18,893 nucleotides of DNA, taken from the NCBI GenBank assembly GCA_029573975.1, contig JAKQBU010000217.1, positions 1 to 18,893 of the forward strand, given 5' to 3'. Below, in pieces: positions 3,705-18,893 of this stretch. This stretch comes from Planctomycetota bacterium. GTDB lineage: Bacteria > Planctomycetota > Phycisphaerae > Sedimentisphaerales > SM23-30. Below the pieces are notes generated by a model, which ran no database searches, was not told the origin of the DNA, and saw nothing but the letters and a program-made list of their open reading frames with translations. The position numbers and the translations under genes were made by a program. How positions within the stretch are numbered: the stretch's first letter is position 1; each line of letters opens with the position of its first letter.

Positions 3705-3819
3705 ATCACTTTTCTTTTATACTAGGAGTTTAGAGTAGCATAAAGGTGCCAAATAACAATGACACTGTAATGTTTTCCAAAAGGCATAATTCATTATTGA
3801 AAAATATATGTATCTCCTA

Positions 3820-6483
3820 TTATCGATTCTCCAACTCCTCCTTAATCGTCTGCAGCAGATTAATCGCCTGCATCGGCGTCAGATTATTGATATCCGTATG
3901 CCGCAGGCGCTCCAGCAGCGGATCCGGCGGGCTGTTATCGAACAGCAGCAATTGCCGGTCCTGCTTCTGCTCCAGCCGGCCGCCGAGCTGGGGCACATGC
4001 GCCTCCCGCGCGAAATTATTCTCCAACTCCTCCAGGATCTCCCGGCTGCGCTTCAGCACCGGCCGCGGGATCCCCGCCAGCCGCGCCACGTGAATCCCGT
4101 AGCTCTTGTCCGTCCGGCCCGGTACGATCTTGTGCAGGAACACCACCTCCTCCTTCCACTCCCGCACCGCCACGTTGTAATTCTTCACATTCCCCAGCAA
4201 ATCCGCCAGTTCCGTCAGCTCGTGATAATGCGTCGCAAACAGCGTCCGGCACTTCACCTGAGCGGCGATATGCTCCGTAATCGCCCACGCCAGCGCCAGC
4301 CCGTCATACGTGCTGGTCCCCCGCCCGATCTCGTCCAGAATCACCAGCGACCGCTCCGTCGCGTTGTTGATGATGTTGGCCGTCTCGGTCATCTCCACCA
4401 TGAAGGTGGACTGGCCCCGCGTCAGCTCATCGCTGGCCCCCACCCGCGTGAAGATCCGGTCCACCAGCCCGATCTGGGCAGTTTTGGCTGGGATGAAACT
4501 GCCCGTCTGCGCCAGCAGCACCAGCAGGGCCGTCTGCCGGATATAGGTACTCTTGCCGCTCATGTTCGGGCCGGTGATGATCGCCAGGTCCCCGTGCCCG
4601 CCTCCCAGGGCCACATCATTCGGCACAAACTGGCTGGCAAGCTGGGCCTCCAGCACCGGATGCCGCCCCTCCGCAATCACCAGTTCCTTCTGCTCGTGCA
4701 GCTCCGGCCGGCAGTAGTTCCGCTCCCGCGCCAACTGCGCCAGCCCCGCCAGCACGTCGATCTTCGCCAGGGCGTCCGCCACCTGCTGCAAGTGCAGCGT
4801 CTGCGCCGCCACCTGCCCCCGCACCTGGCCGAACAACTCTTCCTCCCGCCGCTTGCACCGCTCCTCGGCTGTCAGGGCCTCCGACTCATACTTTTTCAGT
4901 TCGTCGGTGATATACCGCTCGGCGTTCTTGATCGTCTGCTTCCGCACGAACTCCGCCGGCACCCGCTCCCGGTGCACATGCGAGACCTCCACATAATAGC
5001 CGAACACCTTATTGAATCCCACCTTCAGCGAATTGATCCCCGTCTGTTCGATGAGCTTCCGCTGATACTCCGCCAGCCAGGTCTTGCCGTCCCGGCCGAT
5101 GCTCCGCAGCCGGTCCACCTCCTCGTCGAAACCTTTGCGAATCACGCCGCCGTCGCGGCAGGTCAGGCCCGCGTCCGGGTCAATCGCCGCCTCAATCAAA
5201 TCCGCCGTCGCCTCCAGCGTATCGCACTGCCGGGCCAACTGCATCAGCAGTTCCGCGCTGCACCAGTCCAGGACCTTTTTGATCGCCGGCAACTGCCGCA
5301 GCGTTCCGCCCAGGCTGAGCAAATCCCGCGGCATCGCCCGGCCGGTACTGATCCGCGTCGTGATCCGCTCGATATCCGCCACCTCGGCAAAGCACTTCCG
5401 CAAATCCCCCCGCAGTTCCTCCGCCTGCACCAGTTCCGCGATCGCGTCCTGCCGCCGCTCGATCTCCGCCAGCTCGTTCAGCGGATAACAAATCCACACC
5501 CGCAGCTTTCGCGCCCCCATCGCCGTCATGGTCTTGTCGATGCTGTGCAGCAGCGAACCCGCCGCCGCATGGTCCCGGATCGTCCGCTCCACCTCCAGAC
5601 TCCGCAGCGTCGTCTGGTCCAGTTGCAGAAACCTCTCCCGCACCACCTTCCGCAACTGCGAGATGTGCCCCAGGGCCGTTTTCTGCGTCTCGTTCAGATA
5701 ATCGATGATCGCCCCCGCCGCCGCCACTGCCGCTCCCGCCTGAGAAAATCCAAACCCCTCCAGCGATGCCGTCCCGAAATGCTTCTTCAGCATCTCCAGC
5801 CCCTGCCGCCCCTCGAAGACCCATCCCGGCCGCTTCGTCAGCGCCGCACCCGTCAGATCGCGCAACTGCTCGCCGAACTTAACAGGGACATCCTCCGCTT
5901 CCTCGCTCAAGAGGCACTCCGCCGGCCGGATCCGCACCAGCTCATCCAGCACATACCGCCGCTCCACCGTCTCGGCGAAAAATTGCCCCGTCGATAAATC
6001 CACCCACGCCAGGCCCGCCGGCTCCCGCTCCGCCCCGGCCCCGCCGCCTTTCCCCGCCGCCTGCCGCCCGAAACACACCGCCGCCAGATAATTCCCCCGC
6101 CGCTCCTCCAGCAGCGAATCCTCCGTCAGCGTCCCCGCCGTCACCAGCCGCACCACGTCCCGCTTGACCACCCCCTTGGCCAGCGCCGCGTCCTCCATCT
6201 GCTCGCAGATCGCCACCCGGTGCCCCGCCTTGATCATCTTGTGCAAATACCCATCCACCGCGTGATACGGCACCCCCGCCAGCGGCACCGGGTTCTCTCC
6301 CCCCTTGTTCCGGCACGTCAGCGCAATCCCCAGCACCTGCGAACACAGCTTCGCATCCTCATAAAACGTCTCGTAAAAATCCCCCATCCGGAAAAACAGC
6401 ACCACCCCCGGATACTGCTCCTTAAAATGCATATACTGCCGCATCGCCGGCGTCAGCTTCGTATTGTCCGTATTCTCTTCCAT
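3820..6483 (-). CDS. mutS: DNA mismatch repair protein MutS
   Basis: A full-length 887-residue MutS, which recognises mismatches and uses ATP to recruit the repair machinery in the cytoplasm. The mismatch-reading Phe-X-Glu is intact (Phe36 and Glu38 in GDFYETF, as in the Escherichia coli protein). The ATPase carries Walker A GPNMSGKST (638-646), Walker B LVILDEIGRG (713-722, with Asp717 and Glu718), and the THYHEL switch near 751-756. The C-terminus ends with LTPMQAINLLQTIKEEL, a typical MutS tail. The ATG at 6483 gives the standard N-terminus. It starts only 6 bases after the hepT stop, so it is probably co-transcribed with the mntA-hepT toxin-antitoxin genes. No mutL is in the window. Confidence 0.98.
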   Translation of the reverse strand: MEENTDNTKLTPAMRQYMHFKEQYPGVVLFFRMGDFYETFYEDAKLCSQVLGIALTCRNKGGENPVPLAGVPYHAVDGYLHKMIKAGHRVAICEQMEDAALAKGVVKRDVVRLVTAGTLTEDSLLEERRGNYLAAVCFGRQAAGKGGGAGAEREPAGLAWVDLSTGQFFAETVERRYVLDELVRIRPAECLLSEEAEDVPVKFGEQLRDLTGAALTKRPGWVFEGRQGLEMLKKHFGTASLEGFGFSQAGAAVAAAGAIIDYLNETQKTALGHISQLRKVVRERFLQLDQTTLRSLEVERTIRDHAAAGSLLHSIDKTMTAMGARKLRVWICYPLNELAEIERRQDAIAELVQAEELRGDLRKCFAEVADIERITTRISTGRAMPRDLLSLGGTLRQLPAIKKVLDWCSAELLMQLARQCDTLEATADLIEAAIDPDAGLTCRDGGVIRKGFDEEVDRLRSIGRDGKTWLAEYQRKLIEQTGINSLKVGFNKVFGYYVEVSHVHRERVPAEFVRKQTIKNAERYITDELKKYESEALTAEERCKRREEELFGQVRGQVAAQTLHLQQVADALAKIDVLAGLAQLARERNYCRPELHEQKELVIAEGRHPVLEAQLASQFVPNDVALGGGHGDLAIITGPNMSGKSTYIRQTALLVLLAQTGSFIPAKTAQIGLVDRIFTRVGASDELTRGQSTFMVEMTETANIINNATERSLVILDEIGRGTSTYDGLALAWAITEHIAAQVKCRTLFATHYHELTELADLLGNVKNYNVAVREWKEEVVFLHKIVPGRTDKSYGIHVARLAGIPRPVLKRSREILEELENNFAREAHVPQLGGRLEQKQDRQLLLFDNSPPDPLLERLRHTDINNLTPMQAINLLQTIKEELENR

Positions 6484-6489
6484 AGAAAC

Positions 6490-6834
6490 TCAAGGCTGCT
6501 TGGCCAAAACCTTTTCCAATTGTGTTTTCAAGGTCGGGAGGTCTTCTGTAATAATCTTCCAGACAATATCCAGATCAACATCGTAGTAACCATGTATTAA
6601 ACGATCTCTGGTTCCTGCTATTGATTTCCACGGAATTGCTGGGAATTTGTTTCGTGTTGGCTCAGACACTCCTTTGGCAGCTTCACCCAGAATTTCTAAT
6701 AGTCGAACCAAAGCCAATGCCAGCAATTCATCTTTATCAAGCTCCTCCCGCTTACGCACTTTGGTAAACTCAATCGCCTTGACCACCGCATCATACATGT
6801 GATGCAAACGAAAATCATCCTTGTCCCTGGACAT
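6490..6834 (-). CDS. hepT: HepT-like toxin (HEPN RNase) of a type VII toxin-antitoxin pair
   Basis: A 114-residue HepT/DUF86 HEPN protein. HEPN toxins are dimeric RNases with an R-X4-6-H active site. Here it is Arg76-X4-His81 followed by Tyr83 (RDRLIHGY), the R-X4-H-X-Y form in which the tyrosine is the residue adenylylated by the partner antitoxin. It overlaps mntA by 20 bases and has a strong Shine-Dalgarno (GGAGG, 6 nt before the ATG), so the two are made together. It ends in TGA 6 bases before mutS. The composition is less GC-rich than that of mutS, consistent with acquisition of a mobile module. The family is secure; toxicity of this copy is inferred. Confidence 0.93.
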   Translation of the reverse strand: MSRDKDDFRLHHMYDAVVKAIEFTKVRKREELDKDELLALALVRLLEILGEAAKGVSEPTRNKFPAIPWKSIAGTRDRLIHGYYDVDLDIVWKIITEDLPTLKTQLEKVLAKQP

Positions 6835-7120
6835 ATTGCACCTCCGCCTGCTCCATTACCGTATCCCGGAAATAGCGGCTCAAAAATTGCGGCGTATTCA
6901 AATCCACCTTGTGCCCCAACAGCTCGGACAATTCCACCTGCATATCAAAAAACGCAAAGCCCGGCTCATGCCCCTTTTCAAATTCCACCAGCACATCAAT
7001 GTCACTACCGGCGGCAAAATCATCCCGCAGCGCCGAGCCGAATATCGATAACTGTTGAATATGATGCTGCTTGCAAAACGCAGCGATCTTCTCTTTTGGC
7101 ATTTTCACTTTCTTATTCAT
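6815..7120 (-). CDS. mntA: MntA-like nucleotidyltransferase antitoxin
   Basis: A 101-residue minimal nucleotidyltransferase. The catalytic signature GS-X10-D-X-D is complete (Gly28, Ser29, Asp40, Asp42), with a third acidic residue, Asp73, in KVDLNT. In characterised MntA-HepT pairs this enzyme transfers AMP to the HepT tyrosine and so neutralises the RNase; both partners' motifs are present here. The frame is open further upstream to a TTG at 7183, but that TTG coincides with a good -35 hexamer. The ATG at 7120 has GGAG 9 nt upstream, so it is preferred. It is the first gene of the likely mntA-hepT-mutS unit. Confidence 0.93.
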   Translation of the reverse strand: MNKKVKMPKEKIAAFCKQHHIQQLSIFGSALRDDFAAGSDIDVLVEFEKGHEPGFAFFDMQVELSELLGHKVDLNTPQFLSRYFRDTVMEQAEVQYVQGQG

Positions 7121-7154
7121 AGATTCCATCTCCGATAAAAAATTCCAACATACC

Positions 7155-7183
7155 ATGATAATCCCCCCATCCCACCCGGTCAA
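7155..7183 (-). promoter_or_regulatory. candidate sigma-70 promoter of mntA-hepT(-mutS)
   Basis: On the minus strand, TTGACC (7183-7178) and TATCAT (7160-7155) are separated by exactly 17 bp. Each hexamer matches five of six consensus bases. Transcription would start near 7148, giving a leader of about 28 nt to the mntA ATG. It lies in the 68-base gap after the mnmE-like gene, so the toxin-antitoxin genes and probably mutS have their own start. It has not been tested. Confidence 0.6.
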
Positions 7184-7188
7184 CCCAA

Positions 7189-8325
7189 TTACTCCCCCTC
7201 GTCCACAACCCGCCGCAGCTGCTCCGCCATCTCCGCCGCCGCACTCCCCAGCGCCGCCCGCAGCAACTCATACTGCCGCCGCGTGAACACCAGCGGCCGC
7301 TCCGGCTCAAACCCGCCAAACCCCAGCTTCGCCGCTATCGCCTGCCGCAGCCGCTCCAGATTCTCCTCCTTCAGCGCCGATACCCCGACCCAGCCGTCCA
7401 CCTGCCCATACTCTCCCAACCGGTCCATCTTATTCACCACCAAGATATACGGCTTCCCCGCCGGCAGGCTGGCAAGCTGCCCCTCCGCCTGCTCCGCCGC
7501 CTTCGCCCCCGCCTCCACCACCACCAGCACCAAATCCGCCCCCGCCGCCTGCCGCTCCGCCCGCCCAATCGCCTCCCGCTCCAACTCATCCTCAGCCTCC
7601 TGCCGCCGCCCCGCCGTATCAATCAGGTTCACCGGCACCCCCTCCATATCCACCAGTTCCGCCGTCCAGTCCCGCGTCGTGCCCGCCAAGTTCGAGCCGA
7701 TACTCTGCCGTCGCCCCGCCAGCGCATTGCACAGCGTACTCTTGCCCACATTCACCGCACCCGCCGCCACCACCGCCGCCGGATGCAGCAGTCGCTCCGC
7801 CAGCTTAAAGCTGCCCAGCACCTCCTCCATCCGCCACCGCGCCTCCGCCGGCTCACACTCTCGCCTCTCCAGCCGCCCCGCCAGCTCCGCCGCCCACGCC
7901 CCCAGCGCCCGCTGCTCCTGCGCCGCGATCGCCAGCACCCCCAGCCGCGTCCGGCACCGCGGCAGATACAACTCCACCTCCTCCCGGATAGACCGTCCCC
8001 CGATCATCTTCTCCCAGCTCACGACCTCCGCCCCCTCCTTCTGCAACAGCAGCAAAATCCGCTGCACAATCCGCGGCCCGCCGTGACAATCGATATCCAC
8101 CTCCTCCCGCCGGCTATCCGCCGCCACCACCACCTGGTCCACCGGCTCCTGTTCATCGTATATCTCACCCAACCACAACCGCCCCGGCTCCTCCCCCAGC
8201 TTCACCTGCCGCCCCGACCGCCCGCGAAATATCTTCGCCACCGCCGCGATGCATCCCGCCCCCTTTATCTGGATCACCGCAATCCCCGCCGTCCCCGCCG
8301 GAGTCATCAAGGCTGCCCGCATCAT
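7189..8325 (-). CDS. divergent MnmE/TrmE-like GTPase lacking the C-terminal CxGK motif
   Basis: 378 residues. MnmE normally works with MnmG to modify wobble uridines in tRNA. An N-terminal TrmE-like domain is recognisable (TPAGTAGIAVIQI at 8-20; VDIDCHGGP at 76-84). It is followed by a G domain: G1 GAVNVGKST (189-197), G2 GTTRD (215-219), G3 DTAGR (236-240), G4 NKMD (298-301), G5 SAL (316-318). Two things are odd: the usual GEFxxRAFxNxKxDL segment is absent, and the protein stops at RRVVDEGE without the terminal Cys-X-Gly-Lys that carries MnmE's essential cysteine. It is also shorter than the usual 450 or so residues. The ATG at 8325 overlaps the coaX stop (ATGA) with AGGAG 5 nt upstream. Orthology to MnmE is likely; standard activity is doubtful. 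Confidence 0.8.
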   Translation of the reverse strand: MMRAALMTPAGTAGIAVIQIKGAGCIAAVAKIFRGRSGRQVKLGEEPGRLWLGEIYDEQEPVDQVVVAADSRREEVDIDCHGGPRIVQRILLLLQKEGAEVVSWEKMIGGRSIREEVELYLPRCRTRLGVLAIAAQEQRALGAWAAELAGRLERRECEPAEARWRMEEVLGSFKLAERLLHPAAVVAAGAVNVGKSTLCNALAGRRQSIGSNLAGTTRDWTAELVDMEGVPVNLIDTAGRRQEAEDELEREAIGRAERQAAGADLVLVVVEAGAKAAEQAEGQLASLPAGKPYILVVNKMDRLGEYGQVDGWVGVSALKEENLERLRQAIAAKLGFGGFEPERPLVFTRRQYELLRAALGSAAAEMAEQLRRVVDEGE

Positions 8326-9113
8326 CCCTGCTCCTGGGCCTCCTGGGCCGCCTGGTACTGCTGATACGCCAGATACAGCCCGCTCAAACACAAATCCGGC
8401 GCCAGCGAATCCGCAAAGTCGCACTTCTTCGCAATCAGCTCCGCATACCCGCCCGTCAGCACCACCTGCGGCCACTTCCCCAGCGTCGTCGCATACCGCT
8501 CCACCAGCTCCCGCAACGCCCCGATCGCCCCGTAATAGATCCCGCTCTGAATCGCCATCTCCGTATTGATCCCGATCTCAAACTCCGGCACCGCCGGCTC
8601 CACCAGCGGCAGCGCATCGGTATAATCCTTCAGGCTCCGTGCCGCCAGATGCAGCCCCGGCATGATCACCCCGCCCAGAAAGATCCCCTGCTCGTTCACG
8701 CAGTCAATCGTCGTCGCCGTCCCGAAATCCGCCACCACCACCGCCCCCTGCACCACCTCATACGCCGCCGCCGCCGTCAGCAGCCGGTCCGTACCCACCG
8801 TCTCCGGATTCTCAATCGCCAGCTTCATCCCCAGCGGAACCTCCCGCCCCACCAGCAGCACCCGCTGATCCAGCCCCTTGAGCACCGCCGCCTCCACCAC
8901 CGCCAGGCTCTTGCGGTTCACCGAACTGACCACCACCGGCACCGTCCGCGCCCCCAGCGGCTGCGGCCCGCACACCCCCCGGAACCGCGCCAGCACCTCC
9001 CCCAGCCGACCCTGCTCCGCCAGCCCCAGATGCTCCGCCGGACTCATCTGCTCCTTCACAAACACCGACAGATTCACCGTGCTATTGCCTATATCGATTG
9101 CGATCATGTCCAT
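8322..9113 (-). CDS. coaX: type III pantothenate kinase
   Basis: 263 residues. It phosphorylates pantothenate in the first step of coenzyme A synthesis. The ASKHA-fold motifs are present: the N-terminal phosphate loop IAIDIGNST (from residue 4), PETVGTDRL near 105-113, and VADFGTATTIDCVN near 129-142, with GGVIMPGL after it. These identify CoaX rather than type I or II enzymes. The frame is open upstream, but the ATG at 9113 is chosen because AGGAG lies 9 nt before it and it places the phosphate loop at the N-terminus; an ATG two codons later (9107) is possible. Its TGA overlaps the next gene's ATG in an ATGA junction, implying coupled translation with the mnmE-like GTPase. Confidence 0.95.
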   Translation of the reverse strand: MDMIAIDIGNSTVNLSVFVKEQMSPAEHLGLAEQGRLGEVLARFRGVCGPQPLGARTVPVVVSSVNRKSLAVVEAAVLKGLDQRVLLVGREVPLGMKLAIENPETVGTDRLLTAAAAYEVVQGAVVVADFGTATTIDCVNEQGIFLGGVIMPGLHLAARSLKDYTDALPLVEPAVPEFEIGINTEMAIQSGIYYGAIGALRELVERYATTLGKWPQVVLTGGYAELIAKKCDFADSLAPDLCLSGLYLAYQQYQAAQEAQEQG

Positions 9114-9414
9114 CTCTTGGGACTCCTGAAAATCAGCCATTGCCCAGGGCAATGCTCCAATTTATGTATTGGCCTTTTCTTGCTTTATCGTATTTACTAT
9201 TTCCCACCTTTTACCATATTTTTCCCATCTCCACAATGAAATCCTTTTCGCCTAGCAACAGGGCGGCAGCGTCTGTCTGACACTTTTGGCAAATCAAAAG
9301 ATAAAACGCTGACCCCATGCGGTTTCTGCACCTGATGTGAATAAACCGGCAGTCAGAAGATTTTCTACCGGCTTGCCGCTGGGATGTCATTGGGGGCTAT
9401 TGCGCCGGCGAGGC
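9114..9414. other. intergenic region with a nested inverted repeat
   Basis: No gene is visible in these 301 bases, which lie between the start of coaX and the end of the oxidoreductase gene. The only structure I see is a nested pair of dyads at 9267-9311: outer arms CAGCGT (9267-9272) and ACGCTG (9306-9311), enclosing inner arms CTTTTG (9283-9288) and CAAAAG (9295-9300). On the minus strand it lies about 100 nt past the oxidoreductase stop, so it could mark a transcript end, but there is no clean terminator. The coaX promoter should also be in this region; I cannot assign it. Confidence 0.35.
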
Positions 9415-10782
9415 TTACACAGTCCAGCCGGGGCGGTTTTCGCGGCGGAGGAACTGATTGGCTTCCGGCAGGTTGGTGAACTGCATGTTATCACCGTCCC
9501 AATGCAGGCGTATCTGGGTAAGTTTTTCCTTCAGGCTGCGGCGCAGCGCGATATTGCCCAGCAGCACGACTTCGGTCAGCGGGCCGGCATGGTCGAAGTT
9601 GGAACCGGCTGGGGCGCCGCCCTTGCAGGCGTTGGCCCACTCCTGATAATGGCCCAGTGAACGGGGCAGGGTGGCAGGCGGGGGAGTAAATTCCTGCATT
9701 TTGCTTTCGGGGATAAGCCGGTTGCCATACATTATACCTTTCTCCCCTATAAAGATCGCGCCGTTGTCCGGCCATGCCCGGCCCTCCTCCAATTCCGCCG
9801 GGCGATGGGGCTTTAGGCCACCATCATACCAGTTGAGCTGAACGGGCGGCATATCGCCGCGGGCAGGGAACTCATAGCGAATCATCGAAGCGGCGGGATA
9901 GGTTTCTTCATTCACCAGCGTGGAATTCGCCTCGACACTGGTCGGATGCCCCAGCTTCAAGGCCCGGAATGACGCATCCATGGCATGGCAGCCGATGTCG
10001 CCGAGTGCCCCGGTGCCGAAATCCCACCAGCCGCGCCAGCGAAACGGGGCATAGGCCGGATGATACGGCCGGACCGGGGCCGGACCCAGCCACAAATCCC
10101 AGTCCATCGTATCGGGTACCGCTGGGGTATCCGACGGGCGGTCCACTCCCTGCGGCCAGTACCAGTTGAACATGCCCTGCATCGGGCGATCCGTCCAGAT
10201 GTGAACCTCGCGCACGCCGCCGATGGCCCCCGCCCAGATCATTTCGCAGAGGCGGCGGGTTTCTTCCGAGGCCTGACCCTGATTGCCCATCTGGGTGGCC
10301 ACCTTCGCCTGACGGGCCGCCGCCGCCAGTCGCCGGGCCTCCTCCACCGTATGCGTCAGCGGCTTCTCGCAGTACACATGCTTGCCCATTTGGATCGCCC
10401 ACAGGGACACCGTCGCATGTAAATGGTCGGGTGTGGCCACCACCACCGCGTCGATCTCTTTCATCTCGTCCAGCATCTTGCGGAAATCGCGGTATTTTTT
10501 GGCGTTGGGATAGCGGTTGAATACATGGGCGGCATGGGCCTCATCCACATCGCACAGTGCCACAATATTCTCGCCGGCATACTGGTCGATATCATGGCTG
10601 CCCTGCCCGCCGATACCGATGCCGGCGATGTTGAGTTTTTCATTGGCGCCCGGCTGGCCGTTCTGGCCCAACACCCGTTTGGGTACATAGGTAAACAGGG
10701 CCACGGCCGCGGTACTCTGCAGGAAATTACGCCGGGACAGGCCCGTCTGTTTTTGGGGGGTATCCGGATTTATACTTTTCAT
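9415..10782 (-). CDS. Tat-exported Gfo/Idh/MocA family oxidoreductase
   Basis: 455 residues. The N-terminus has a twin-arginine signal (SRRNFLQ at 16-22, then TAAVALFTY), so it is exported folded with its cofactor. A Rossmann NAD(P)-binding motif GIGIGGQG follows at 54-61, then ALCDVD, VVATPDHLHA near 114-123, and the family hallmark Glu-Lys-Pro at 139-141 (YCEKPL). Secreted members of this family with tryptophan-rich C-terminal domains are numerous in Planctomycetota and are thought to act on sugars or sugar derivatives; no substrate can be assigned here. It lies 86 bases downstream of a LacI-type regulator on the same strand, suggesting carbohydrate-dependent control. A sequence-level Shine-Dalgarno is weak (AGAG). 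Confidence 0.92.
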   Translation of the reverse strand: MKSINPDTPQKQTGLSRRNFLQSTAAVALFTYVPKRVLGQNGQPGANEKLNIAGIGIGGQGSHDIDQYAGENIVALCDVDEAHAAHVFNRYPNAKKYRDFRKMLDEMKEIDAVVVATPDHLHATVSLWAIQMGKHVYCEKPLTHTVEEARRLAAAARQAKVATQMGNQGQASEETRRLCEMIWAGAIGGVREVHIWTDRPMQGMFNWYWPQGVDRPSDTPAVPDTMDWDLWLGPAPVRPYHPAYAPFRWRGWWDFGTGALGDIGCHAMDASFRALKLGHPTSVEANSTLVNEETYPAASMIRYEFPARGDMPPVQLNWYDGGLKPHRPAELEEGRAWPDNGAIFIGEKGIMYGNRLIPESKMQEFTPPPATLPRSLGHYQEWANACKGGAPAGSNFDHAGPLTEVVLLGNIALRRSLKEKLTQIRLHWDGDNMQFTNLPEANQFLRRENRPGWTV

Positions 10783-10842
10783 GGCTTGGCTCTGGAATCA
10801 AAATGCGTAAATTCATTCAAAACTACTTATTGTAAAATGAAG

Positions 10843-10863
10843 GTCGGACAGGGATTGTCTGAC
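10843..10863 (-). terminator. imperfect hairpin between the lacI-type gene and the oxidoreductase gene (terminator or operator)
   Basis: Arms GTCGGACA (10843-10850) and TGTCTGAC (10856-10863) pair over 8 bp with one G-T mismatch and a 5-nt loop. It begins 5 nt past the regulator's stop codon. On the minus strand the following bases (CTTCATTTTAC) are only moderately T-rich. On the plus strand it is followed by GCTTTTT, but no plus-strand gene ends there. It could attenuate read-through into the oxidoreductase gene or be a regulator-binding dyad. Confidence 0.4.
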
Positions 10864-10868
10864 GCTTT

Positions 10869-11945
10869 TTACGCGGACTCGCGCACAATCAGTGTGGAAG
10901 GAAACGTTTTCTGGATATATTTTTTGGGGGCGGAAAGGCCTTGATCGATGTCGATAATAATATCCACCGCCGCCTGGCCGATTTCCGTACGGGGCTGCCG
11001 CACGGTGGTTAATGCCGGATAGGTAAAGGAACTGAAACTTTGATCGTCGTGGCCGGCCACCAGAATATCCTCGCCGGGTTTCAGGCCGCAATCGTGGATT
11101 GCCTTCATGGCCCCCAGGGCCAGCAGGTCAGTAGCGCAGAAAATGGCAGAGGGTTTATTTCCATTTTTCAGCCAGGCGAGTGTATTGTCATAGCCGAAAT
11201 TTTCATTGTCCAACAGGCCTTTTTCATATTTGGGGATCGGGATGAAAGCCGGTTTTTTGCCGTGCTTCTTCATGGTCTGCACATATCCTTCTTCGCGCAG
11301 TTTCAAACCCACATTATAGGTTCCGAACAGGCTATTGAGATATACCGGTTCGGTACCGCGGCTCAGCAAATGTTCGGTTACCAGGCGGGCACTGCCGAGG
11401 TTGTCGTTCATAACATAGTGCGAATTTTTTTTCAGGTACCGATCGAAATAGACAATCGTGCCGCTTTCCGCCAGATGGTTCAAAAAACTCCGGTCCGGAT
11501 CTGTGACAACCGGAGCGACGAGGATCCCGCAAACGCCCATCGCCCGGAAAAACTGGAGGATCTGCTCCTCTTTCTCGTGGTCGGAATAAGAGCACCGATA
11601 GGCTACCTGGTAGCCCCGCTCGTTGGCCTGCATTTCGGCGGCCTTGATGATTTCCCCGTAAAACGGATGCGTCACGGAGGTGACCACCAGACCGATGATC
11701 CGGGTTCGTCCCCGGACCAGGTGTACGGCATGGGGATTGGGAACGTAATGCAAAAACTCGCAGGCCTCCATGACCTTCTGGCGGGTGGATTTTTTGACGG
11801 TGGGATCGCCGTTGAGGACCTTGGAAACGGTATAACGCGAAAGGCCTGCCCGACGGGCGACCTCGCTCATGGTCGCCAGCGGCCCCAATCCAACAGTTTT
11901 TTTTGGTTCTACCTTGCCCGCTTCCTTTTTTTTTGTTTTTGCCAT
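10869..11945 (-). CDS. LacI family transcriptional regulator
   Basis: 358 residues from the ATG at 11945. A LacI-type DNA-binding helix-turn-helix lies at about 26-45 (MSEVARRAGLSRYTVSKVLNG), followed by the hinge region LHYVPNPHAV. Residues about 80-355 form the periplasmic-binding-protein-like effector domain (IIGLVVTSVTHPFYGEII, AIFCATDLLALGAMKAI, VAGHDDQSF, LTTVRQPR). Such proteins usually repress carbohydrate genes until a sugar ligand binds. The oxidoreductase directly downstream is the obvious target, with autoregulation likely given the dyad over its own promoter. A lysine-rich tail (MAKTKKKEAGKVEPKK) precedes the helix-turn-helix. A TTG two codons upstream is an alternative start. 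Confidence 0.95.
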   Translation of the reverse strand: MAKTKKKEAGKVEPKKTVGLGPLATMSEVARRAGLSRYTVSKVLNGDPTVKKSTRQKVMEACEFLHYVPNPHAVHLVRGRTRIIGLVVTSVTHPFYGEIIKAAEMQANERGYQVAYRCSYSDHEKEEQILQFFRAMGVCGILVAPVVTDPDRSFLNHLAESGTIVYFDRYLKKNSHYVMNDNLGSARLVTEHLLSRGTEPVYLNSLFGTYNVGLKLREEGYVQTMKKHGKKPAFIPIPKYEKGLLDNENFGYDNTLAWLKNGNKPSAIFCATDLLALGAMKAIHDCGLKPGEDILVAGHDDQSFSSFTYPALTTVRQPRTEIGQAAVDIIIDIDQGLSAPKKYIQKTFPSTLIVRESA

Positions 11946-11967
11946 AAACAATCCGTTCTGTAAAGAC

Positions 11968-12005
11968 TTGACAAAAATTATATCATGTCAAAATTACTCT
12001 GCCAG
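11968..12005 (-). promoter_or_regulatory. candidate promoter of the lacI-type gene with a dyad operator over the -10
   Basis: On the minus strand, CTGGCA (12005-12000) and a perfect TATAAT (11982-11977) are spaced by 17 bp, giving a short leader to the ATG at 11945. The -10 is flanked by a perfect inverted repeat, TTGACA (11968-11973) and TGTCAA (11986-11991), separated by 12 bp. A repressor bound there would block RNA polymerase, consistent with autoregulation. LacI-type operators often have a more compact centre, so the binder is uncertain. Confidence 0.5.
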
Positions 12006-12021
12006 CTTTTTTTTAGTTTTA

Positions 12022-12051
12022 CTGGCATTTTACCGGTTTTCCGACTAAAAT
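12022..12051 (+). promoter_or_regulatory. candidate promoter of larB-nnrD
   Basis: CTGGCA (12022-12027) and TAAAAT (12046-12051) are spaced by 18 bp, with a leader of about 30 nt to the larB ATG. The -35-like CTGGCA is the same hexamer, in mirror orientation, as that of the divergent lacI-type promoter. The two are 16 bp apart and form an inverted repeat around a T-rich centre. Confidence 0.4.
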
Positions 12052-12088
12052 AAACGGGTCTGCCGGGTTCTGACGGCGGAAATAAAGC

Positions 12089-12859
12089 ATGAATACAGAG
12101 AAACTTACATTATTGCTGGGCCAGGTAAAAGACGGGAAAGTCTCCATTGAGCAGGCCCTGCATACCCTGCGGCACCTGCCGTTTGAATCCCTGGACTACG
12201 CCCATCTGGACCATCATCGGCACCTGCGGTGCGGCCTGCCGGAGGTCATCTACTGCCCGGGTAAAACCACCGCGCAGATTGTCGAAATTTTTGACCGCCT
12301 GGCACAGCGAGGACATAATGTCCTGGCCACCCGCACTGACCGGGAAACCTATGAAAAAGTGGCCCATCGCTATCCGGAGGCCCGATTTGAAGAACTGGCC
12401 CGTGCGATTACCCTCAAACAGGAGGCGGTTTGTCCTTCTCCCGGTCACATTGCGGTTGTTACTGCCGGGACTGGCGATATCCCGGTGGCGGAAGAAGCCC
12501 GTGTTACCGCCGAAATCCTGAACCAGCAGGTATTTACGATTTACGACGTCGGCGTGGCGGGCATCCACCGGCTGTTGAATTATCAAACCCAACTTCAGTC
12601 AGCCAATGTAGTTATCGTTGTGGCAGGTATGGAAGGCGCCTTGGCCTCCGTTGTCGGCGGCTTGGTGGCGGTACCGGTGATCGCGGTGCCGACTTCCATC
12701 GGTTATGGGGCCAGTTTCGGCGGGGTTGCAGCACTGCTAGCAATGTTGAATAGCTGTGCGGCGGGGGTTTCAGTGGTGAATATCGACAACGGCTTTTCCG
12801 CCGGGTGTATCGCGGCCCTGATTAACCGGCAGTCGAAGCCTGTTTCTATGGAAAAGTAA
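12089..12859 (+). CDS. larB: nickel pincer cofactor biosynthesis protein LarB
   Basis: 256 residues. LarB carboxylates and hydrolyses nicotinic acid adenine dinucleotide to pyridinium-3,5-biscarboxylic acid mononucleotide, the first step toward the nickel pincer nucleotide of lactate racemase and related enzymes. The C-terminal half is the PurE-like catalytic domain: VVTAGTGDIPVAEEA near 126-140, YDVGVAGIHRLL near 155-166, VVAGMEGALASVVGGL near 181-196, and PTSIGYGASFGGVAALL. The N-terminal region (PEVIYCPGKTTAQI) is also characteristic. The larC, larE and larA genes are not in the window. nnrD follows after 4 bases, so the two are co-transcribed; both deal with nicotinamide-type dinucleotides. 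Confidence 0.93.
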   Translation: MNTEKLTLLLGQVKDGKVSIEQALHTLRHLPFESLDYAHLDHHRHLRCGLPEVIYCPGKTTAQIVEIFDRLAQRGHNVLATRTDRETYEKVAHRYPEARFEELARAITLKQEAVCPSPGHIAVVTAGTGDIPVAEEARVTAEILNQQVFTIYDVGVAGIHRLLNYQTQLQSANVVIVVAGMEGALASVVGGLVAVPVIAVPTSIGYGASFGGVAALLAMLNSCAAGVSVVNIDNGFSAGCIAALINRQSKPVSMEK

Positions 12860-12863
12860 AATC

Positions 12864-13733
12864 ATGATTGAGGAAATTACCCAGATTCCCAGATTACCGG
12901 CCCGTCCGCGTGATGCCCATAAAGGCCTCTTTGGTCGAATTTTAATCATTGGCGGCAGCCGGGGTATGGTCGGCGCTTCCAGCCTGGCTGGCCGGGCGGC
13001 TTTGCGGTCGGGGGCAGGACTGGTGCGGATTGCCGTTCCCGCCTCCATTCAGCTTACGGTTGTCGGCCTAGTCCCCTGCGCCACGACCATACCCCTGGCG
13101 GAAGATGGCGACGGTCGCATCTCCAGCAAAGCCATTCCGGAAATTCTGGCTACTATTGAAGATAATGATATAGTAGCCCTAGGGCCGGGGCTGGGGCAAT
13201 CGAACGAGCTACAGGGTCTATTAGAGAGTATTCTCCGGCAGGGAGAAAAGCCGGTGGTTTTGGATGCCGACGGTCTCAATAACCTAGCTAGCCTCTGGCA
13301 CAGAAAAACACAAATGCCTGCTAAAACTATACTTACACCTCATCCGGGCGAGATGAAACGGCTCTGGGCAGCGATTCTGCGTGAGCCTCTGCCCACCAAC
13401 CGGCAGGAGCAGGCGGAAATCCTGGCCCGGAAACTGCAAGCGGTGCTGGTTTTAAAGGGTTCTGGTACCGTAATAACCGATGGGAAAAGAACTTATATCA
13501 ACACCACCGGCAATCCCGGCATGGCTACCGGGGGGACCGGCGATGTTTTGACCGGTTGTATCGCCGGGGTGCTGGGGCAGGGCTTGACGCCCTTTGAGGC
13601 GGCGGTGCTGGGGGTTTATGTTCACGGTCGCGCCGGCGACCTGGCGGCGGCGGAACGGTCGGAAATCGCCCTGACCGCTGAGGATGTTATCGACTTTTTG
13701 CCCCCGGTCTGGCGGGAATTTTCGCAGCGATAA
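12864..13733 (+). CDS. nnrD: ADP-dependent NAD(P)H-hydrate dehydratase
   Basis: 289 residues. It repairs damaged hydrated NADH and NADPH by dehydration coupled to ATP or ADP use. Ribokinase-fold motifs are clear: GRILIIGGSRGMVGA (24-38), DIVALGPGLGQS (102-113), PVVLDADGLNNLA (130-142), TPHPGEM (158-164), LKGS (197-200), and the anion-hole/catalytic stretch GNPGMATGGTGDVLTG (216-231, with Asp227). The N-terminal epimerase domain found in fused YjeF-type proteins is absent, so NnrE would have to be encoded elsewhere. The start follows larB by 4 bases; the Shine-Dalgarno is poor (GGAAAAG, more distant than usual), which fits translational coupling. Confidence 0.94.
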   Translation: MIEEITQIPRLPARPRDAHKGLFGRILIIGGSRGMVGASSLAGRAALRSGAGLVRIAVPASIQLTVVGLVPCATTIPLAEDGDGRISSKAIPEILATIEDNDIVALGPGLGQSNELQGLLESILRQGEKPVVLDADGLNNLASLWHRKTQMPAKTILTPHPGEMKRLWAAILREPLPTNRQEQAEILARKLQAVLVLKGSGTVITDGKRTYINTTGNPGMATGGTGDVLTGCIAGVLGQGLTPFEAAVLGVYVHGRAGDLAAAERSEIALTAEDVIDFLPPVWREFSQR

Positions 13734-13742
13734 ATTCCGTTC

Positions 13743-13771
13743 TTGTATCGGCAGGGCATACCGGTTATAAT
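13743..13771 (+). promoter_or_regulatory. candidate promoter of the first selenoprotein gene
   Basis: A perfect TATAAT (13766-13771) lies 17 bp after TTGTAT (13743-13748), a weak -35 with only the first three bases in consensus. It falls in the 96-base gap after nnrD and would give a leader of about 50 nt to the ATG at 13830. Confidence 0.45.
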
Positions 13772-13829
13772 TCCTGTCATTAGCTGCTGGCGGAACATTA
13801 AATAGTGTTTAAACTGGTTGAGGTTCCGG

Positions 13830-15233
13830 ATGGTCGTTTTTATTGCAAAAAGAATTGAGTTTTTGGGGTGGATCATTGTGATTGGTTTTTGCCTGGGATT
13901 TTTCCCGCTCCGTCAAGCAGCCGCCCAGCCGGAGGAATCCCAGCCGCCGCCGCAGGCACAACTGGAGATACAGGGGCAATTTATTAAGAAGCTCGTACTG
14001 CAAAATGAAAAAAATGAGAGTGTGTCCTTCGAGAATCCGGGGAAAAAAATCGAACTGCCCCCCGGAAAGTATCGGATAATTAATGTAATAACCAATGGAT
14101 ACAATTCTTACAGTGATTTGTGGATTGAGGTGGAATCCGACAAGGAGAATGTACTCAAGGTTGGTGGGCCTTTATATCAGTATGTTACCGCCACCCGGCA
14201 GGGAAAGATTATTCGGCTGGATTATTCGCTGAGGGGTCAGGGCGGCGAAAGTTATACCAGCCTAATGAGGAACAAACCGCCCCAGTTTGCCATTTTTCAA
14301 GGGGATAAGCAGATCGCCGCCGGCGCCTTCGAGTATGGCTGAGGCGGGACCTGCGCGTACTCGTGGCGAGTACCCATTACGGCGTTTGGCAAGTTACGGA
14401 TTGAAGCCTGGCAGGATGGCGAGGAAGGCACCTTCGGCAAACGGGGGATCGCTTTTTATGACTGGCCCTGGTATGATCACCTTTGGTCATTTGGTTTGTG
14501 GGCCATTCTGATTGGGATGCTGGTGCTAATCCGGGAAAATCGCTGCCGCCCAGCCTGGTTGATCTGGCTGCCGGTTTTGGTTGTCTTTGCCCTGTGGGGA
14601 ATGTTCTGCCAGGTACTGGGAATCCCCTCCTCCAGTATCGAACAATTTGGTTTGTTAATCAGTACGGTAGTCCTGGCGCTGGCTGTTTTGTGGCTGGTGG
14701 GCGGCTGGTTGGGCCGATTCAGAGGAAGGGTATCCTTCTTTTTGGCATTTTTGCTGATGGCAATCGTTGGGATTATCGGCATTTTTAGCAATTTCAGTTT
14801 CCAATGGGACAGGAATGTAACACCTTGCATCCTGGTGTATGGTATCAGTGTTTTCGTTCTATTGCTGGCTATTGCACTGACCCGCCGCTGCTGCCGCAAA
14901 AAATTTGGTGCCAAACGGTTCATGCTGTTTTTATTATTGTGGATACCGGTTTTCATCATGGCTTCCATCCTTGTTTACATGGGCATATTCGTAATCTTCG
15001 AGGAGAATCTGCGCCGGATGATTCTAACGGTATTATTCCAGGTTGTTATTATCAGTTCGGTTATGGGCATAGCTTTGTATCTCATCCTGCTGCCGTTTAT
15101 GATTCTGGCCTTTCGCAGCAGGTTTTACCGGCGGCGGCTGGAGGGGTGCCTGAATCTGCCGGCCCCGGCAGCAGAGGGCGGCAATCTTGAAAAGGCCAAG
15201 CCGGAAAATGTGAGAATTGATGACATTACTTAA
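13830..15233 (+). CDS. predicted selenoprotein: secreted UGGTC domain fused to about seven membrane helices (467 aa, Sec171)
   Basis: One gene read through an in-frame UGA at 14340-14342. The part before the UGA has a signal peptide (hydrophobic 11-25, AAA near 30-32) and a beta-rich domain. The same frame stays open after the UGA for 296 codons. The site reads FEYG-Sec171-GGTC-AYSWRVP, with Cys175 as a likely selenenylsulfide partner. After about 45 more extracytoplasmic residues come hydrophobic helices near 218-234, 242-265, 273-295, 301-320, 330-351, 362-389 and 396-427, then a polar tail. The ATG at 13830 has GAGG 6 nt upstream. A covarying hairpin follows the UGA. Function is unknown; a redox or metal-handling role at the cell surface is inference. 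Standard gene callers would split it into two genes. Confidence 0.87.
14340..14373 (+). promoter_or_regulatory. selenocysteine UGA and SECIS-like hairpin, copy 1
   Basis: UGA (14340-14342) is followed by 14 nt and then a perfect 7-bp stem, GTACTCG (14357-14363) with CGAGTAC (14367-14373), closed by the triloop TGG. It can also be drawn as 6 bp with loop GTGGC. The apical loop begins 22 nt after the UGA and contains G, within what is known for bacterial SECIS elements, which are read by the SelB elongation factor. The loop and its closing pairs encode Ser-Trp-Arg, so RNA and protein constraints coincide. Confidence 0.85.
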
Positions 15234-15257
15234 TGTATAGAAAGGACTTACGGCAAG

Positions 15258-15276
15258 CCGGCCTAAAAAGAGCCGG
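15258..15276 (+). terminator. possible weak terminator hairpin after the first selenoprotein gene
   Basis: CCGGC (15258-15262) and GCCGG (15272-15276) form a 5-bp stem with a 9-nt loop, starting 24 bases after the stop codon. The T-run (GATTTTCTT) begins several bases later, so this is not a canonical intrinsic terminator. Confidence 0.3.
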
Positions 15277-15336
15277 ACCGGGGATTTTCTTAGAAACAAA
15301 ATAGCAGCAAAAGCGTCTGTATTTTTATAAGCGATT

Positions 15337-15345
15337 TGCTATAAT
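15337..15345 (+). promoter_or_regulatory. candidate extended -10 promoter of the second selenoprotein gene
   Basis: TGC followed by a perfect TATAAT (15340-15345) makes an extended -10 element. No convincing -35 is present at 16-18 bp, which extended -10 promoters tolerate. Transcription would start near 15352 and give a leader of about 40 nt to the ATG at 15392, which has AGGAAGGA upstream. Confidence 0.5.
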
Positions 15346-15391
15346 CGAAGGATAATCACAATAGGGTTCAACGCCAGGAAGGAAACGTATC

Positions 15392-17503
15392 ATGAAGAAA
15401 CACGTTATTTGGGCAAGCCTGGTTTTGGCAGTTTATTTAAGCTTTCCCGCTGGGGTTTCAGCGGAGCCGCAGTGGCTCCAGTATCGCACCGCCCGGGAAA
15501 CGCGGGAAATACTGGGGGATATCGGGTATCAGAACTTGAATTTTACCTCGAATCGGAGCCGCCAGGATGATCCGAACCGGGTGCATCTGACCGCCTTGTC
15601 TTTTTTCAAGGCCAATCCGGATGGTTCGGTGGTGGAGCTGGAACGCTGGACCACCCTGTTTCCCTCGACCGCCTGGGGGATCGGGGTGCGGGAGGGAGAG
15701 ATTGACTCGGCTGCCAAATGGCTCAATCATCCGGAGAATTTCCAGCTTGATATCCCGCTGGAGGTTGGCCGGGAGCAGACCTTTACCTTCCAGATGGCGC
15801 ATACCGGTGATATTCAGGACTATTACGGCCTGAATTTCTTCTTCGACGGCCGGGAAACCGGCCTGGAGGGGCCTAAACCGGGGATTTCGGTGTATTCGCT
15901 GGTGGATGGCACGGGTTTGCAGGACGGCAATCCGGAATTTCTGGCCAATAGCGCCGGGCAAACCCAGGGCTGGCCCTTTGATCCGTCGGTGCCGGGGGCT
16001 GGAACGCTGGTGTATGATGACCCGATCAAGGGGATACGGGTGACACTGGCCAACTATGCGATGTACCCCAAATCCGTTTTTAAGCTGGATTATATTCAGC
16101 CCAGCCCCAACGGCTATCCTATTGCCCCGGACGGCTCTCCGGACCCGGTCGGTCAGTTTACCCTGCGGGCGGAGCGTTATGAGGCGGTCGCACCGGCGGA
16201 AGCGGAGAAGCCGGCGCCGCTGATTCTGCCCAAGGCGGCCGGGCAGGATCTACTGATTGCCAAATGGAATGCCCCGCTGGCGGAATGGGGCTTTTTGTGG
16301 GTGATTCTGGATGTAACCAAAAATACCTCCGGAACGGTTTGCCTGTATATCGATTCGGATGGGGACGGCAATCTGGAGAATGAAAACCCGATCCATCCCA
16401 GCTTTACGGACAATTACCGGCTGACCTTTGGCCCGGTCCAGGTTCCCTTTGAGGTGGATGGGGAGCCGGTCAGCTACCATGTGAACTTCATGTTTTACAA
16501 CCGCAGCGATTATACGCGGCTGTATGCCTATGCCGGCGGGTGGTACGAAGGTCCCATCCGGGTGGGGGATACGGAGCAATTCTGTATGCTGATGGATCAG
16601 AATGCCAACGGTACCTTTGATGACAAGAGTGTCAATTTCAGCGAAAGCGACCGGATTCGCATCGGTCCCAAAGACCAGCGGGATAGCCGCTATGTCGGCA
16701 ATTATGTCCAGTTGGCCGGCCAGCTCTATGCCTTACAGGTGGCACGGGATGGCGCCTATATCGAGCTGGCGGTGGCGGAGGACGTAAAGTACGGTTCGGT
16801 GCAGGTCCCGGAAACCATTACGGAGCTGGCGGCCGGCGGGGAAAATGGGCTGTTCACCGTGCCGCTAGAGAAGGGCAAGGGTTCGCTGCCGGTGGGAACG
16901 TACCGGATCGAACACTGGGGGATCGAGCGGAAAGACGACCAAGGTGCGAACTGGAGGCTGGCGGGCCGCTGGTTCGATGACAAGGGAATTTTCGCGATTA
17001 CACAGGATCAGCAGACGGATCTGAAGATTGGCGAACCGATTGTCTCCACTCTGGAAGATCGTACGCAGGGGAAGGAACATTATTTCAATCAGCGTACGGC
17101 CGGCTCGCTGGGAGAGTATATTGAGCTTACCCGCAACGGCTCCCAGCCGTCAGCCCCCGGCGTGCGCATCAAAAACCAGGACGGCTCCTATGACCGCAAA
17201 TTTACCCTGGAGTATGGGTGAGGCGGCACCTGTTCGCTCTCGTGGCGAGAGCCTTCATCCGAATCGGGAACATTTTTCGCAACAGTCGAACTTGGCGGGC
17301 CGTTTCAGGTTACCGCCCAGCCGTACAGCTTTAGCGTGGGCAGCGGCCCCGCGGTCCGGGAAGCAACCGAAGTTGCCCTGGGAACGGAAACCACCCAGAT
17401 GCCGCCCCCGTCATCCAGTAAAAACTGGATTATTGTGCTGGGTATTCTCCTGGTAGTGGCGGTGATCGCGGTGGTCACGCGGAAAAAGAAAACGCCGAAT
17501 TGA
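15392..17503 (+). CDS. predicted selenoprotein: large exported protein with C-terminal UGGTC domain and single membrane anchor (703 aa, Sec610)
   Basis: Read through an in-frame UGA at 17219-17221; the real stop is the TGA at 17501-17503. A signal peptide (1-24, ending GVSA) leads into a large extracytoplasmic region with two acidic, calcium-loop-like stretches (DSDGDGNLENE at 321-331, DQNANGTFDD at 402-411). The last domain (about 485-650) resembles the ectodomain of the upstream selenoprotein: LPVGTYRI, LKIGEP, then FTLEYG-Sec610-GGTC-SLSWREP, with Cys614 after Sec. A proline/serine linker, one membrane helix (about 679-695) and RKKK follow, so the protein is anchored with its bulk outside. 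Without read-through the anchor would be lost. AGGAAGGA precedes the ATG. Function is unknown. Confidence 0.87.
17219..17252 (+). promoter_or_regulatory. selenocysteine UGA and SECIS-like hairpin, copy 2
   Basis: UGA (17219-17221), 14 nt, then a 7-bp stem GCTCTCG (17236-17242) with CGAGAGC (17246-17252) and the triloop TGG. Spacing, stem length and loop equal those of copy 1. Two stem base pairs differ between the copies (U-A to C-G and A-U to U-A), and pairing is kept in both. That is compensatory covariation, and it changes encoded residues outside the conserved S-W-R. Confidence 0.85.
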
Positions 17504-17543
17504 CGGCGGTCGTTGTTTTTGGAAAATTGTGGTTTTGAATAGT

Positions 17544-17561
17544 TGGCAGCACCTACTGCCA
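17544..17561 (+). promoter_or_regulatory. leader hairpin just upstream of the carboxypeptidase-regulatory-like gene
   Basis: TGGCAG (17544-17549) and CTGCCA (17556-17561) pair perfectly over 6 bp with a 6-nt loop. It sits in the 72-base gap after the second selenoprotein gene, directly before the Shine-Dalgarno (AGGG). There is no T-run, so it looks like a leader or mRNA-stabilising hairpin rather than a terminator. Confidence 0.35.
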
Positions 17562-17575
17562 GAGAGGGTTTGGTT

Positions 17576-18893
17576 ATGCGCAAAAATGGGATATGGATTG
17601 GGAATATCGTTCTGGCAGTAGTTTTAACCGGCAGTATGGCATTGGCCCAGACACCGGAAGCGGTGCAAAAGGACCCGAATCAGCCGCCCCAGGTCCGCTG
17701 TGCGGGCAAGGTGGTGGATGGGCAGGGCCAGCCGCTGGCTGGGGCGCAGGTGGAACTGTATCGTATAATCCTGGTTGATGAAAATACCTATTCGTTTGAA
17801 GTGGAAAAGACCAAGGAGGCAATCACCGGCAACGACGGGGCCTTTTCGTTTGAGACTGCCCAGGAGGAAAACAGTCAAGCCAATCAGTCTGTGCTTCTGG
17901 CACAAAAGGATGGTTTCAGTATCGGCTGGGCCAATTGGATTCGGCGGGAAAATCTGGAAACCACTATCACCCTGGGCCAACCGGCGGACCTGGCCGGCCG
18001 GGTGGTGGACGAGGTGGACCAGCCCGTTGCCGGGGCGCAGGTGGGGATTGCGTTTCTGGTGGTAAATGTAAAGAATGAACCGCGGTATATGATTCAGAAA
18101 ATATCAAAAAAATTGCTCACAGCCGTTACGGACCCGGAAGGCGGTTTTGTTTTTAAGCGTTTGCCGGCGGAAGCGACCGCGGAATTTGCGGTGGAAAAAG
18201 CGGGCCGGGCGACGGTCAACACCTTCCAGCCGGGAAATTACCAGGGAAATGTCCTGCAATTTAAGCCGGGCCAGAAGGATATCAAGATCGTACAGCCCCT
18301 TGAAGCCATTATCGAAGGACAGGTGGTGGAGAAAGACAGCGGCAAACCGGCAGCAGGGATTCGGCTGGCGGCGCGGCAGAAACAGAGTTCGGCTCCCTTT
18401 AGCCCGGACCCGGTTTTATCCGATGCCGAAGGCCGCTTCCGTCTGAAGGGATTAATGGCGGGAAGCTGGACGATCAGCCTGGTTCAGCCGAAGGAAGTTC
18501 TGGGGGAGTGGGTGGGTGCGCCGGTAGAAGTGACCGCGGAAGCGGGCAAGACCAGCGAAGCCGTTAAAATCGAATTGTCAAAAGGCGGCGTCATCGAAGT
18601 AAAAGTGACCGACGAGGAAAGCAAACAGCCGGTGGATAAAGCCAGAGTAATGATCGACCCGGCTGAGGGGGGACAATCCCTGTCCATGCAGTCCGACCCG
18701 CAGGGTCTGGCACGCCTGCGGGTGCTGCCGGGCCAATACCGGCTCCGCGGTGTGTACATACAGGGAGGAGGCATGAGGCAGCGACGGGATGAGGCGATAA
18801 CCGTGGAAGAAGGGAAAACGGTGAGTCTGGAGTGCCAGATTACCGGTCCGACCAAGGTGGCCGGGGTAGTGAAGGACGAGGCAGGCCAGCCGG
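17576..18893 (+). CDS. exported protein with tandem carboxypeptidase-regulatory-like (Ig-like) repeats (partial, C-terminus off the right edge)
   Basis: 439 codons are visible with no stop. A signal peptide (hydrophobic 7-22, ending ALAQ) is followed by at least five beta-sandwich repeats with about 100-residue spacing. They start near residues 40, 138, 245, 338 and 426, each opening with a pattern like AGKVVDGQGQPLAGAQV. Further landmarks such as TDPEGGFVFKRLPAE and SDAEGRFRLKGLMAG are typical of the carboxypeptidase regulatory-like domain, a structural module of surface proteins that does not itself show a catalytic role. The ATG at 17576 has AGGG 7 nt upstream. It lies 72 bases after the second selenoprotein gene and is probably in the same envelope-protein cluster. 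No in-frame UGA is present in the visible part; the missing C-terminus should be inspected for one. Confidence 0.85.
   Translation, partial: MRKNGIWIGNIVLAVVLTGSMALAQTPEAVQKDPNQPPQVRCAGKVVDGQGQPLAGAQVELYRIILVDENTYSFEVEKTKEAITGNDGAFSFETAQEENSQANQSVLLAQKDGFSIGWANWIRRENLETTITLGQPADLAGRVVDEVDQPVAGAQVGIAFLVVNVKNEPRYMIQKISKKLLTAVTDPEGGFVFKRLPAEATAEFAVEKAGRATVNTFQPGNYQGNVLQFKPGQKDIKIVQPLEAIIEGQVVEKDSGKPAAGIRLAARQKQSSAPFSPDPVLSDAEGRFRLKGLMAGSWTISLVQPKEVLGEWVGAPVEVTAEAGKTSEAVKIELSKGGVIEVKVTDEESKQPVDKARVMIDPAEGGQSLSMQSDPQGLARLRVLPGQYRLRGVYIQGGGMRQRRDEAITVEEGKTVSLECQITGPTKVAGVVKDEAGQP

Follow-up and report, generated by a model that had tools for sequence, protein, structure and literature searches.

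Do two neighbouring genes of a planctomycete read an in-frame UGA as selenocysteine (Sec, U), and to which kind of protein would the residue belong? The question is raised by an 18,893-nucleotide stretch of a Planctomycetota bacterium (contig JAKQBU010000217.1, positions 1 to 18,893 of the forward strand; referred to as the window), in which two plus-strand genes, A (13830..15233) and B (15392..17503), follow each other head to tail. A first-pass annotation, made from the letters of the window, had described two neighbouring frames with one UGA each in the same peptide context, open to 15233 and 17503, and had proposed selenoproteins of an undescribed family. The coordinates proved correct. 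Conservation of the UGA, a covarying hairpin behind it, selection on the frame beyond it and Sec genes in most relatives all support the proposal, and we regard A and B as very likely selenoproteins on these sequence grounds. The feature extends far beyond the two window genes.

In-frame UGA codons of genes A and B

Frame A runs from an ATG at 13830 (alternative TTG at 13818) to a TAA at 15231-15233 and contains a single in-frame UGA (14340..14342), the likely selenocysteine codon of residue 171. The product comprises an N-terminal hydrophobic helix, a beta domain, the domain that carries the UGA (U-domain; residues about 107-212, 14148..14465) and seven predicted membrane helices (residues 219-429, 14484..15116). 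Frame B extends from the ATG at 15392 to a TGA at 17501-17503, with a single internal UGA (17219..17221) as the likely selenocysteine codon of residue 610. Here an N-terminal hydrophobic helix and beta domains precede the U-domain (residues 549-651, 17036..17344), and a predicted C-terminal membrane helix (residues 679-697, 17426..17482) and a basic tail follow it. The UGA context reads AFEYG-U-GGTCAYSWRVP in A and TLEYG-U-GGTCSLSWREP in B, with [FL]EYG-U-GGTC in common. Past the UGA, 296 codons remain in A, leading into the membrane bundle, and 93 in B, covering the one predicted helix and the basic tail.

The window was compared with its closest relative, locus L001, whose B protein is 93% identical (loci are numbered with L, genomes with G). 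The ratio of nonsynonymous to synonymous substitution rates (dN/dS) in the reading frame was 0.36 before and 0.37 after the UGA of A, and 0.14 before and 0.22 after the UGA of B. In the two shifted frames the post-UGA ratios were 0.79-3.3. With dN/dS this low in frame compared with the shifted frames, both genes continue under purifying selection past the UGA.

A covarying hairpin at a fixed distance from the UGA

A predicted selenocysteine insertion sequence (SECIS) hairpin follows each of the two codons on the plus strand, at 14357..14373 in A and at 17236..17252 in B. As the first-pass annotation had stated, in each a 7-bp stem closed by the triloop UGG lies exactly 14 nt 3' of the UGA. The stems differ in two pairs, both compensated (U-A vs C-G, A-U vs U-A). 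The terminal UGA of B has no such hairpin. The rules for bacterial SECIS elements in the available text of PMC13188914 are a loop of 3-9 nt with a G at its first or second position, a stem of 4-16 bp, a spacing of 16-37 nt between UGA and loop, and a minimum free energy of -7.5 or lower. Both window hairpins fall within these ranges (loop UGG, 7 bp, 21 nt, -10.8 and -10.5 kcal/mol).

The same register recurs in the homologues. Of the homologous UGA sites, 104 distinct ones have enough sequence; 93 of these form at least six of the seven pairs at exactly this position, and 79 form all seven. As a background, 2.1% of the 10,841 plus-strand TGA triplets in the collected loci, a set that still includes the homologous sites themselves, reach at least six pairs. 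Further support is provided by an alignment of 59 sites (A6), in which multiple sites from one genome are not independent. There, 88.9% of cells pair versus 68.7% after shuffling, double changes occur in 75 cells versus 23, with all seven pairs altered on both sides, and the covariation score is 0.475 versus 0.137. None of 500 shuffles matched the paired fraction, the double changes or the covariation score; the two remaining of the five measures were matched by 3 and 5 of 500 shuffles. When the partners were slid by 1-3 columns, pairing dropped to 54% or less. A6 excludes L021 (contig ends 11 nt past the UGA), L033 and L051 (repeats of L001), the B site of L023 (6840), further L012 and L023 sites, and four of the 34 domain matches of the 392-genome survey described below.

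Much of the peptide S-x-S-W-R-x-P is dictated by the hairpin. Stem variants are accompanied by peptide variants: CUCUCG/CGAGAG encodes SLSWRE, UACUCG/CGAGUA encodes SYSWRV, and CUCCGG/CCGGAG encodes SLRWPE (L015, L016).

Homologues and the residue at the UGA site

The genome scans reported here cover Planctomycetota. A search with B among about 5.8 billion proteins returned 600 relatives, 120 of which were listed. Among the matches listed, 119 of 120 end in Tyr-Gly or His-Gly, directly before the UGA, and the remaining one (P0006) reads through with Cys (FRYG-C-GGTCSLSWREP). The protein search with A found 15 homologues; eight were inspected, and all of them start past the UGA. Scanning of contigs yielded 24 B loci, and TGA stands at the aligned site in 24/24. 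The record titles of these loci name Planctomycetota, Phycisphaerae, Phycisphaerales, Sedimentisphaerales and Anaerohalosphaeraceae. The context is altered to DQ-U-GPDC in L014 and L019 and to U-GNTC in L023 and L024; the B gene of L023 has an assembly frame shift upstream of the site. In seven of the 24 loci (L001, L002, L005, L010, L012, L020, L023) gene A is found within 2 kb of B, also with TGA.

A domain of ~110 residues (alignment A2) is common to A and B. Its profile gave 34 matches in 18 of 392 genomes of the phylum, 33 with TGA and one without. A second profile (A8) was built from 33 members, with 32 UGA and one Cys in the U column. Of 397 genomes from the class, 63 gave a match to it; among the matches listed, eight have no stop, one has a TAA and the rest have one TGA each. 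In one genome (G486) the domain matches number 13; each has UGA at the site, and all seven pairs form at register in 12. In total, 114 distinct aligned sites comprise 105 UGA, 4 Cys and 5 other residues, proportions that are not a rate, as the non-UGA cases were collected on purpose. Position U+4 is Cys in 101 of the 104 UGA sites with enough sequence.

Homologues with Cys in place of U do exist, though they are rare (P0006, L043, L101, L102, L104). Distant Cys relatives may be undercounted, because the search profiles were built mostly from UGA members. Among the nine distinct non-UGA homologues, eight keep two to five stem pairs. The ninth, L104:1136, has Cys (TGC) in a selB genome (G518) and keeps six of the seven pairs; it is possibly a recent Sec-to-Cys change. 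At L105:1232, L103:821, L106:1199, L107:836 and L108:1088 the U site is occupied by Thr, Leu, Gly or Thr/Gly, although selB is present in the genomes concerned. These are non-selenium paralogues of the domain.

Selenocysteine machinery in the relatives

The genes for Sec insertion were looked for in the relatives, as the annotation had proposed for the host genome. In 19 of 22 B-locus genomes selB was found over the cut-off, and tRNA-Sec likewise in 19 of 22, including one exactly at the threshold and one partial. The selA gene was present in 17/18 genomes of one set and in 1/7 of a second set of mostly sel-poor genomes. Across the survey, 234 of 392 genomes have selB, namely 15/17 with a UGA copy versus 219/375 others (one-sided Fisher p = 0.010). 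Of 17 survey genomes tested, 14 have tRNA-Sec over the cut-off; none was found in G072, G294 and the Cys genome G410. G486 gave no selB hit and has a tRNA-Sec. In the survey, the two UGA-copy genomes with no selB over the cut-off are G001 and G030; G030 contains selA, selD and tRNA-Sec. Its selD match (G030:C148:11405-11983) itself contains a TGA, and SelD of this genome may be a selenoprotein.

Three genomes (G410, G483, G699) carry a Cys form, FQSQ-C-CGNYR or similar, in which U is replaced by Cys, the partner Cys is lost and a new Cys is adjacent. In these genomes neither selB nor tRNA-Sec was found at the thresholds used, and the hairpin is broken.

Fold, topology and partners of the U-domain

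Structure models predict an immunoglobulin (Ig)/fibronectin type III (FN3)-like fold for the U-domain in A and an FN3/Ig-like sandwich in B; the likeness is to the common Ig/FN3 arrangement only. In the model of B, U610 and C614 flank the turn of a beta-hairpin (U-G-G-T-C). Both proteins are predicted to be exported, with the U-domain outside the cytoplasmic membrane.

The domain is combined with very different partners: the seven predicted helices in A, a beta arm and a C-terminal helix in B, laminin-G-like and sub-cut-off F5/8-like parts in L017, ankyrin repeats in L037, and a membrane part with sub-threshold likeness to DUF4190 in L039. L062, in the genome of L001, has a lipoprotein-type N-terminus as judged by eye, whereas L058 has almost no partner. 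Another membrane bundle accompanies the domain in the minus-strand gene of L022 and in L043. This third membrane type occurs as a TGA form in L022 (U at 7902) and as a CC form in L043, L101 and L102, from three selB-less genomes; the two forms could well represent a single gene. The subtype VMPFG-U-[DA]GTCG[YF][ST]WRVP recurs at L012:4021, L023:2617, L109:3479 and 5241, and L062:1603. It lies near A/B in L012 and L023 and near selB in G022.

Relation to known families

The family indeed appears to be undescribed: no Pfam or NCBIfam model exceeded its cut-off, and no convincing sequence relative of the domain was found in Pfam, NCBIfam or PDB. None of the 119 prokaryotic selenoprotein families in a 2026 catalogue (PMC13188914) fits, compared by names, domains and motifs as printed there. 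The literature on planctomycete, UGGTC-motif and Ig-like selenoproteins yielded no description of the family. The available part of PMC4807772 reports two Planctomycetes with Sec genes and candidate selenoproteins, and the candidates in its supplementary tables may overlap this family.

The nearest catalogued family, by weak sub-threshold likeness, is DUF1573/OS_HP2 (PF07610, NF041425), a selenoprotein family whose name does not point to a thioredoxin-like protein. NF041425 is the only selenoprotein model that touches a member across the U site (L037, E 0.06, residues 58-101). However, its best score is 13.7 bits against a cut-off of 100, in 1 of 33 members, and PF07610 is absent among hits at E 0.1 or less in all 33. 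DUF1573 is itself Ig-like. Its motif is given as UxC or UGC in PMC2398784 and the available text of PMC13188914, whereas the U-domain has U-x3-C (101/104 sites) with a conserved W and P, not UGC. Gene A also resembles 7TMR-DISM (PF07695) in that an extracytoplasmic beta domain is followed by seven membrane helices, and gives a weak profile match; the score is 22.3 bits against a gathering score of 29, a cytoplasmic signalling domain is lacking, and the Sec site is in the outer domain. DsbD combines an Ig-like periplasmic domain bearing a cysteine pair with a membrane domain. A would be similar in its predicted Ig-like domain, the putative redox-type pair on a hairpin and the joined membrane bundle, but has Sec in the pair, seven predicted helices and no thioredoxin domain, and no DsbD model is among its Pfam hits at E 1 or less. 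The SAO and Tso operons, too, hold several selenoprotein genes in one neighbourhood; as far as PMC13188914 describes them, those are mostly unrelated selenoproteins, whereas here one domain is duplicated, with 13 single-UGA copies in G486.

Genomic neighbourhood

Linkage to sel genes was studied in 17 stretches, chosen where one contig contained a U match, a sel gene or, in most cases, both; such a picked set does not give a rate. In 14 genomes a UGA site and a sel gene are no more than 10 kb apart, and in 13 of these no more than 3 kb; a sel-gene-linked UGA site was not seen in two of the 17 stretches (G001:C554, G004:C2). In G002, G003, G007, G012, G014, G017 and G022 the nearest U gene to selA is on the opposite strand, and in G030, G041 and G214 U genes and tRNA-Sec are divergently oriented. 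On the chromosome of G022, a single contig, seven UGA sites lie within 18 kb around selB-selA; assuming 12 sites in the genome, the probability of this clustering by chance is 3e-15 for a given 20 kb. Match coordinates indicate further linkage of U and sel genes in G421, G486, G518, G635 and G647. In G309, a short UGA frame (L070:2736-2945, minus strand; ELEYG-U-GAVCRCSWRAP) with the same hairpin type lies 0.3 kb from selA and may be the remnant of a U gene.

Downstream of B, gene C (17543..18893, plus strand) is cut by the window end; its relatives are carboxypeptidase-regulatory repeat proteins. Such a protein is found near B in 19 of 25 sequences (the 24 loci and the window). Relatives of C include L002:9847-13041 and L005:7146-9638. 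Four relatives were scanned. All four contain the repeats; AhpC-TSA is over the cut-off in one, a thioredoxin-type domain below the cut-off in two, and neither is found in one.

A second type of TGA-split gene, SSYT-U-PPF, was noticed near A/B at L003:10541-12247 (minus strand), L004:7230-8177 (plus), L005:9732-11480 (minus) and L023:8799-10493 (minus). The L003 piece matches T4_deiodinase (PF00837) with 38.5 bits against a cut-off of 27 and shows sub-threshold cytochrome c likeness. These genes probably encode a deiodinase-like selenoprotein.

Proposed function and alternative explanations

Taken as a whole, the reading that we consider probable is that Sec stands in a shared, exported, Ig-like domain, is redox-active there and is inserted with the aid of the SECIS hairpin. 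SelB and tRNA-Sec would very likely decode the UGA, aided by the hairpin. The product is predicted to be exported, with a beta turn bringing Sec and the Cys four residues on together outside the cytoplasmic membrane. The pair would then cycle between selenol/thiol and selenenylsulfide, with electrons passing to or from envelope partners; we give such a selenenylsulfide relay about an even chance. A would be the membrane-embedded member and B an anchored arm, perhaps acting with C as a thioredoxin-fold protein. By analogy, the action would be akin to that of the Ig-like cysteine-pair domain of DsbD, without membership in the DsbD family.

Several observations weigh against this reading. The Cys at U+4 is absent from 3/104 UGA sites and from at least two of the 13 G486 sites, so that the U-x3-C pair is not universal, and in some relatives T, L or G takes the place of U or C at the site. 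The genome of the closest relative (L001, G001) has selD and tRNA-Sec and gave no selA or selB hit, and G005 and G019 carry UGA copies with no selA, selB or selD over the thresholds used; our guess is that the latter two assemblies are incomplete. Only one of the four scanned relatives of C exceeds a thioredoxin-type cut-off, and in the C-terminal parts inspected the CxxC position mostly reads QRPSR, in many cases followed by a Cys two residues later. The turn in A was modelled with a predicted local distance difference test score (pLDDT) under 50, and export is predicted from N-terminal helices and model topology.

In the main rival, A and B are selenoproteins as well, but U-x3-C is a binding site for a soft metal or selenium species, in a surface sensor, store or scavenger, with no electron relay. 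On this view, selenium homeostasis would account for the proximity to selA-selB and tRNA-Sec. The 13 genomes in which a U gene and a sel gene are at most 3 kb apart, the very different partners of the domain, a thioredoxin-like partner that looks catalytically degenerate and the few members without the Cys would all suit such a role. The near-constant Cys at U+4 and the tight predicted turn, however, suit a reversible Se-S bond, and no conserved metal ligand besides U and C is seen near the site in the 33 members of A8. We regard metal or selenium binding as rather unlikely. Much less credible is that the UGAs are real stops, followed by separate or decayed genes. Public gene models do end at the UGA and A relatives start past it, but the in-frame purifying selection beyond the codon, its retention in all 24 B loci, the covarying hairpin and the Cys homologues that read through argue against termination. 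Just as improbable is a UGA reassigned to Trp or Gly, or read by an ordinary tRNA, although both genes contain it in frame: UGA terminates five of 12 checked window frames, including B, the hairpin fits the SECIS rules, and Cys stands at the site where the genome has no selB.

If the selenoprotein reading with a redox-active Sec is extended to all copies, the domain would be a mobile, practically Sec-obligate Ig-like module, and its copies, up to 13 paralogues per genome and grouped with selA-selB and tRNA-Sec, would form a whole envelope system of Planctomycetota. The paralogues would attach the same selenenylsulfide hairpin to membrane bundles, lectin-like arms, ankyrin repeats and lipoproteins, and the Sec machinery would be kept mainly for a surface redox apparatus. 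This extension is tentative, and we put its chances slightly below even.

Implications for the family and its hosts

According to the available text of PMC12013277, Cys homologues abound for nearly every selenoprotein, and families that lack them may escape finders based on Cys/Sec pairs. The present family is a blind spot of selenoprotein finders, because its gene models (119 of the 120 listed) stop directly before the Sec codon. Many genomes of Planctomycetota would need re-annotation. The family places selenocysteine in a predicted Ig-like surface domain, not in a thioredoxin fold, and the role of an exported selenium switch, together with the reason why these bacteria retain the Sec machinery, becomes testable.

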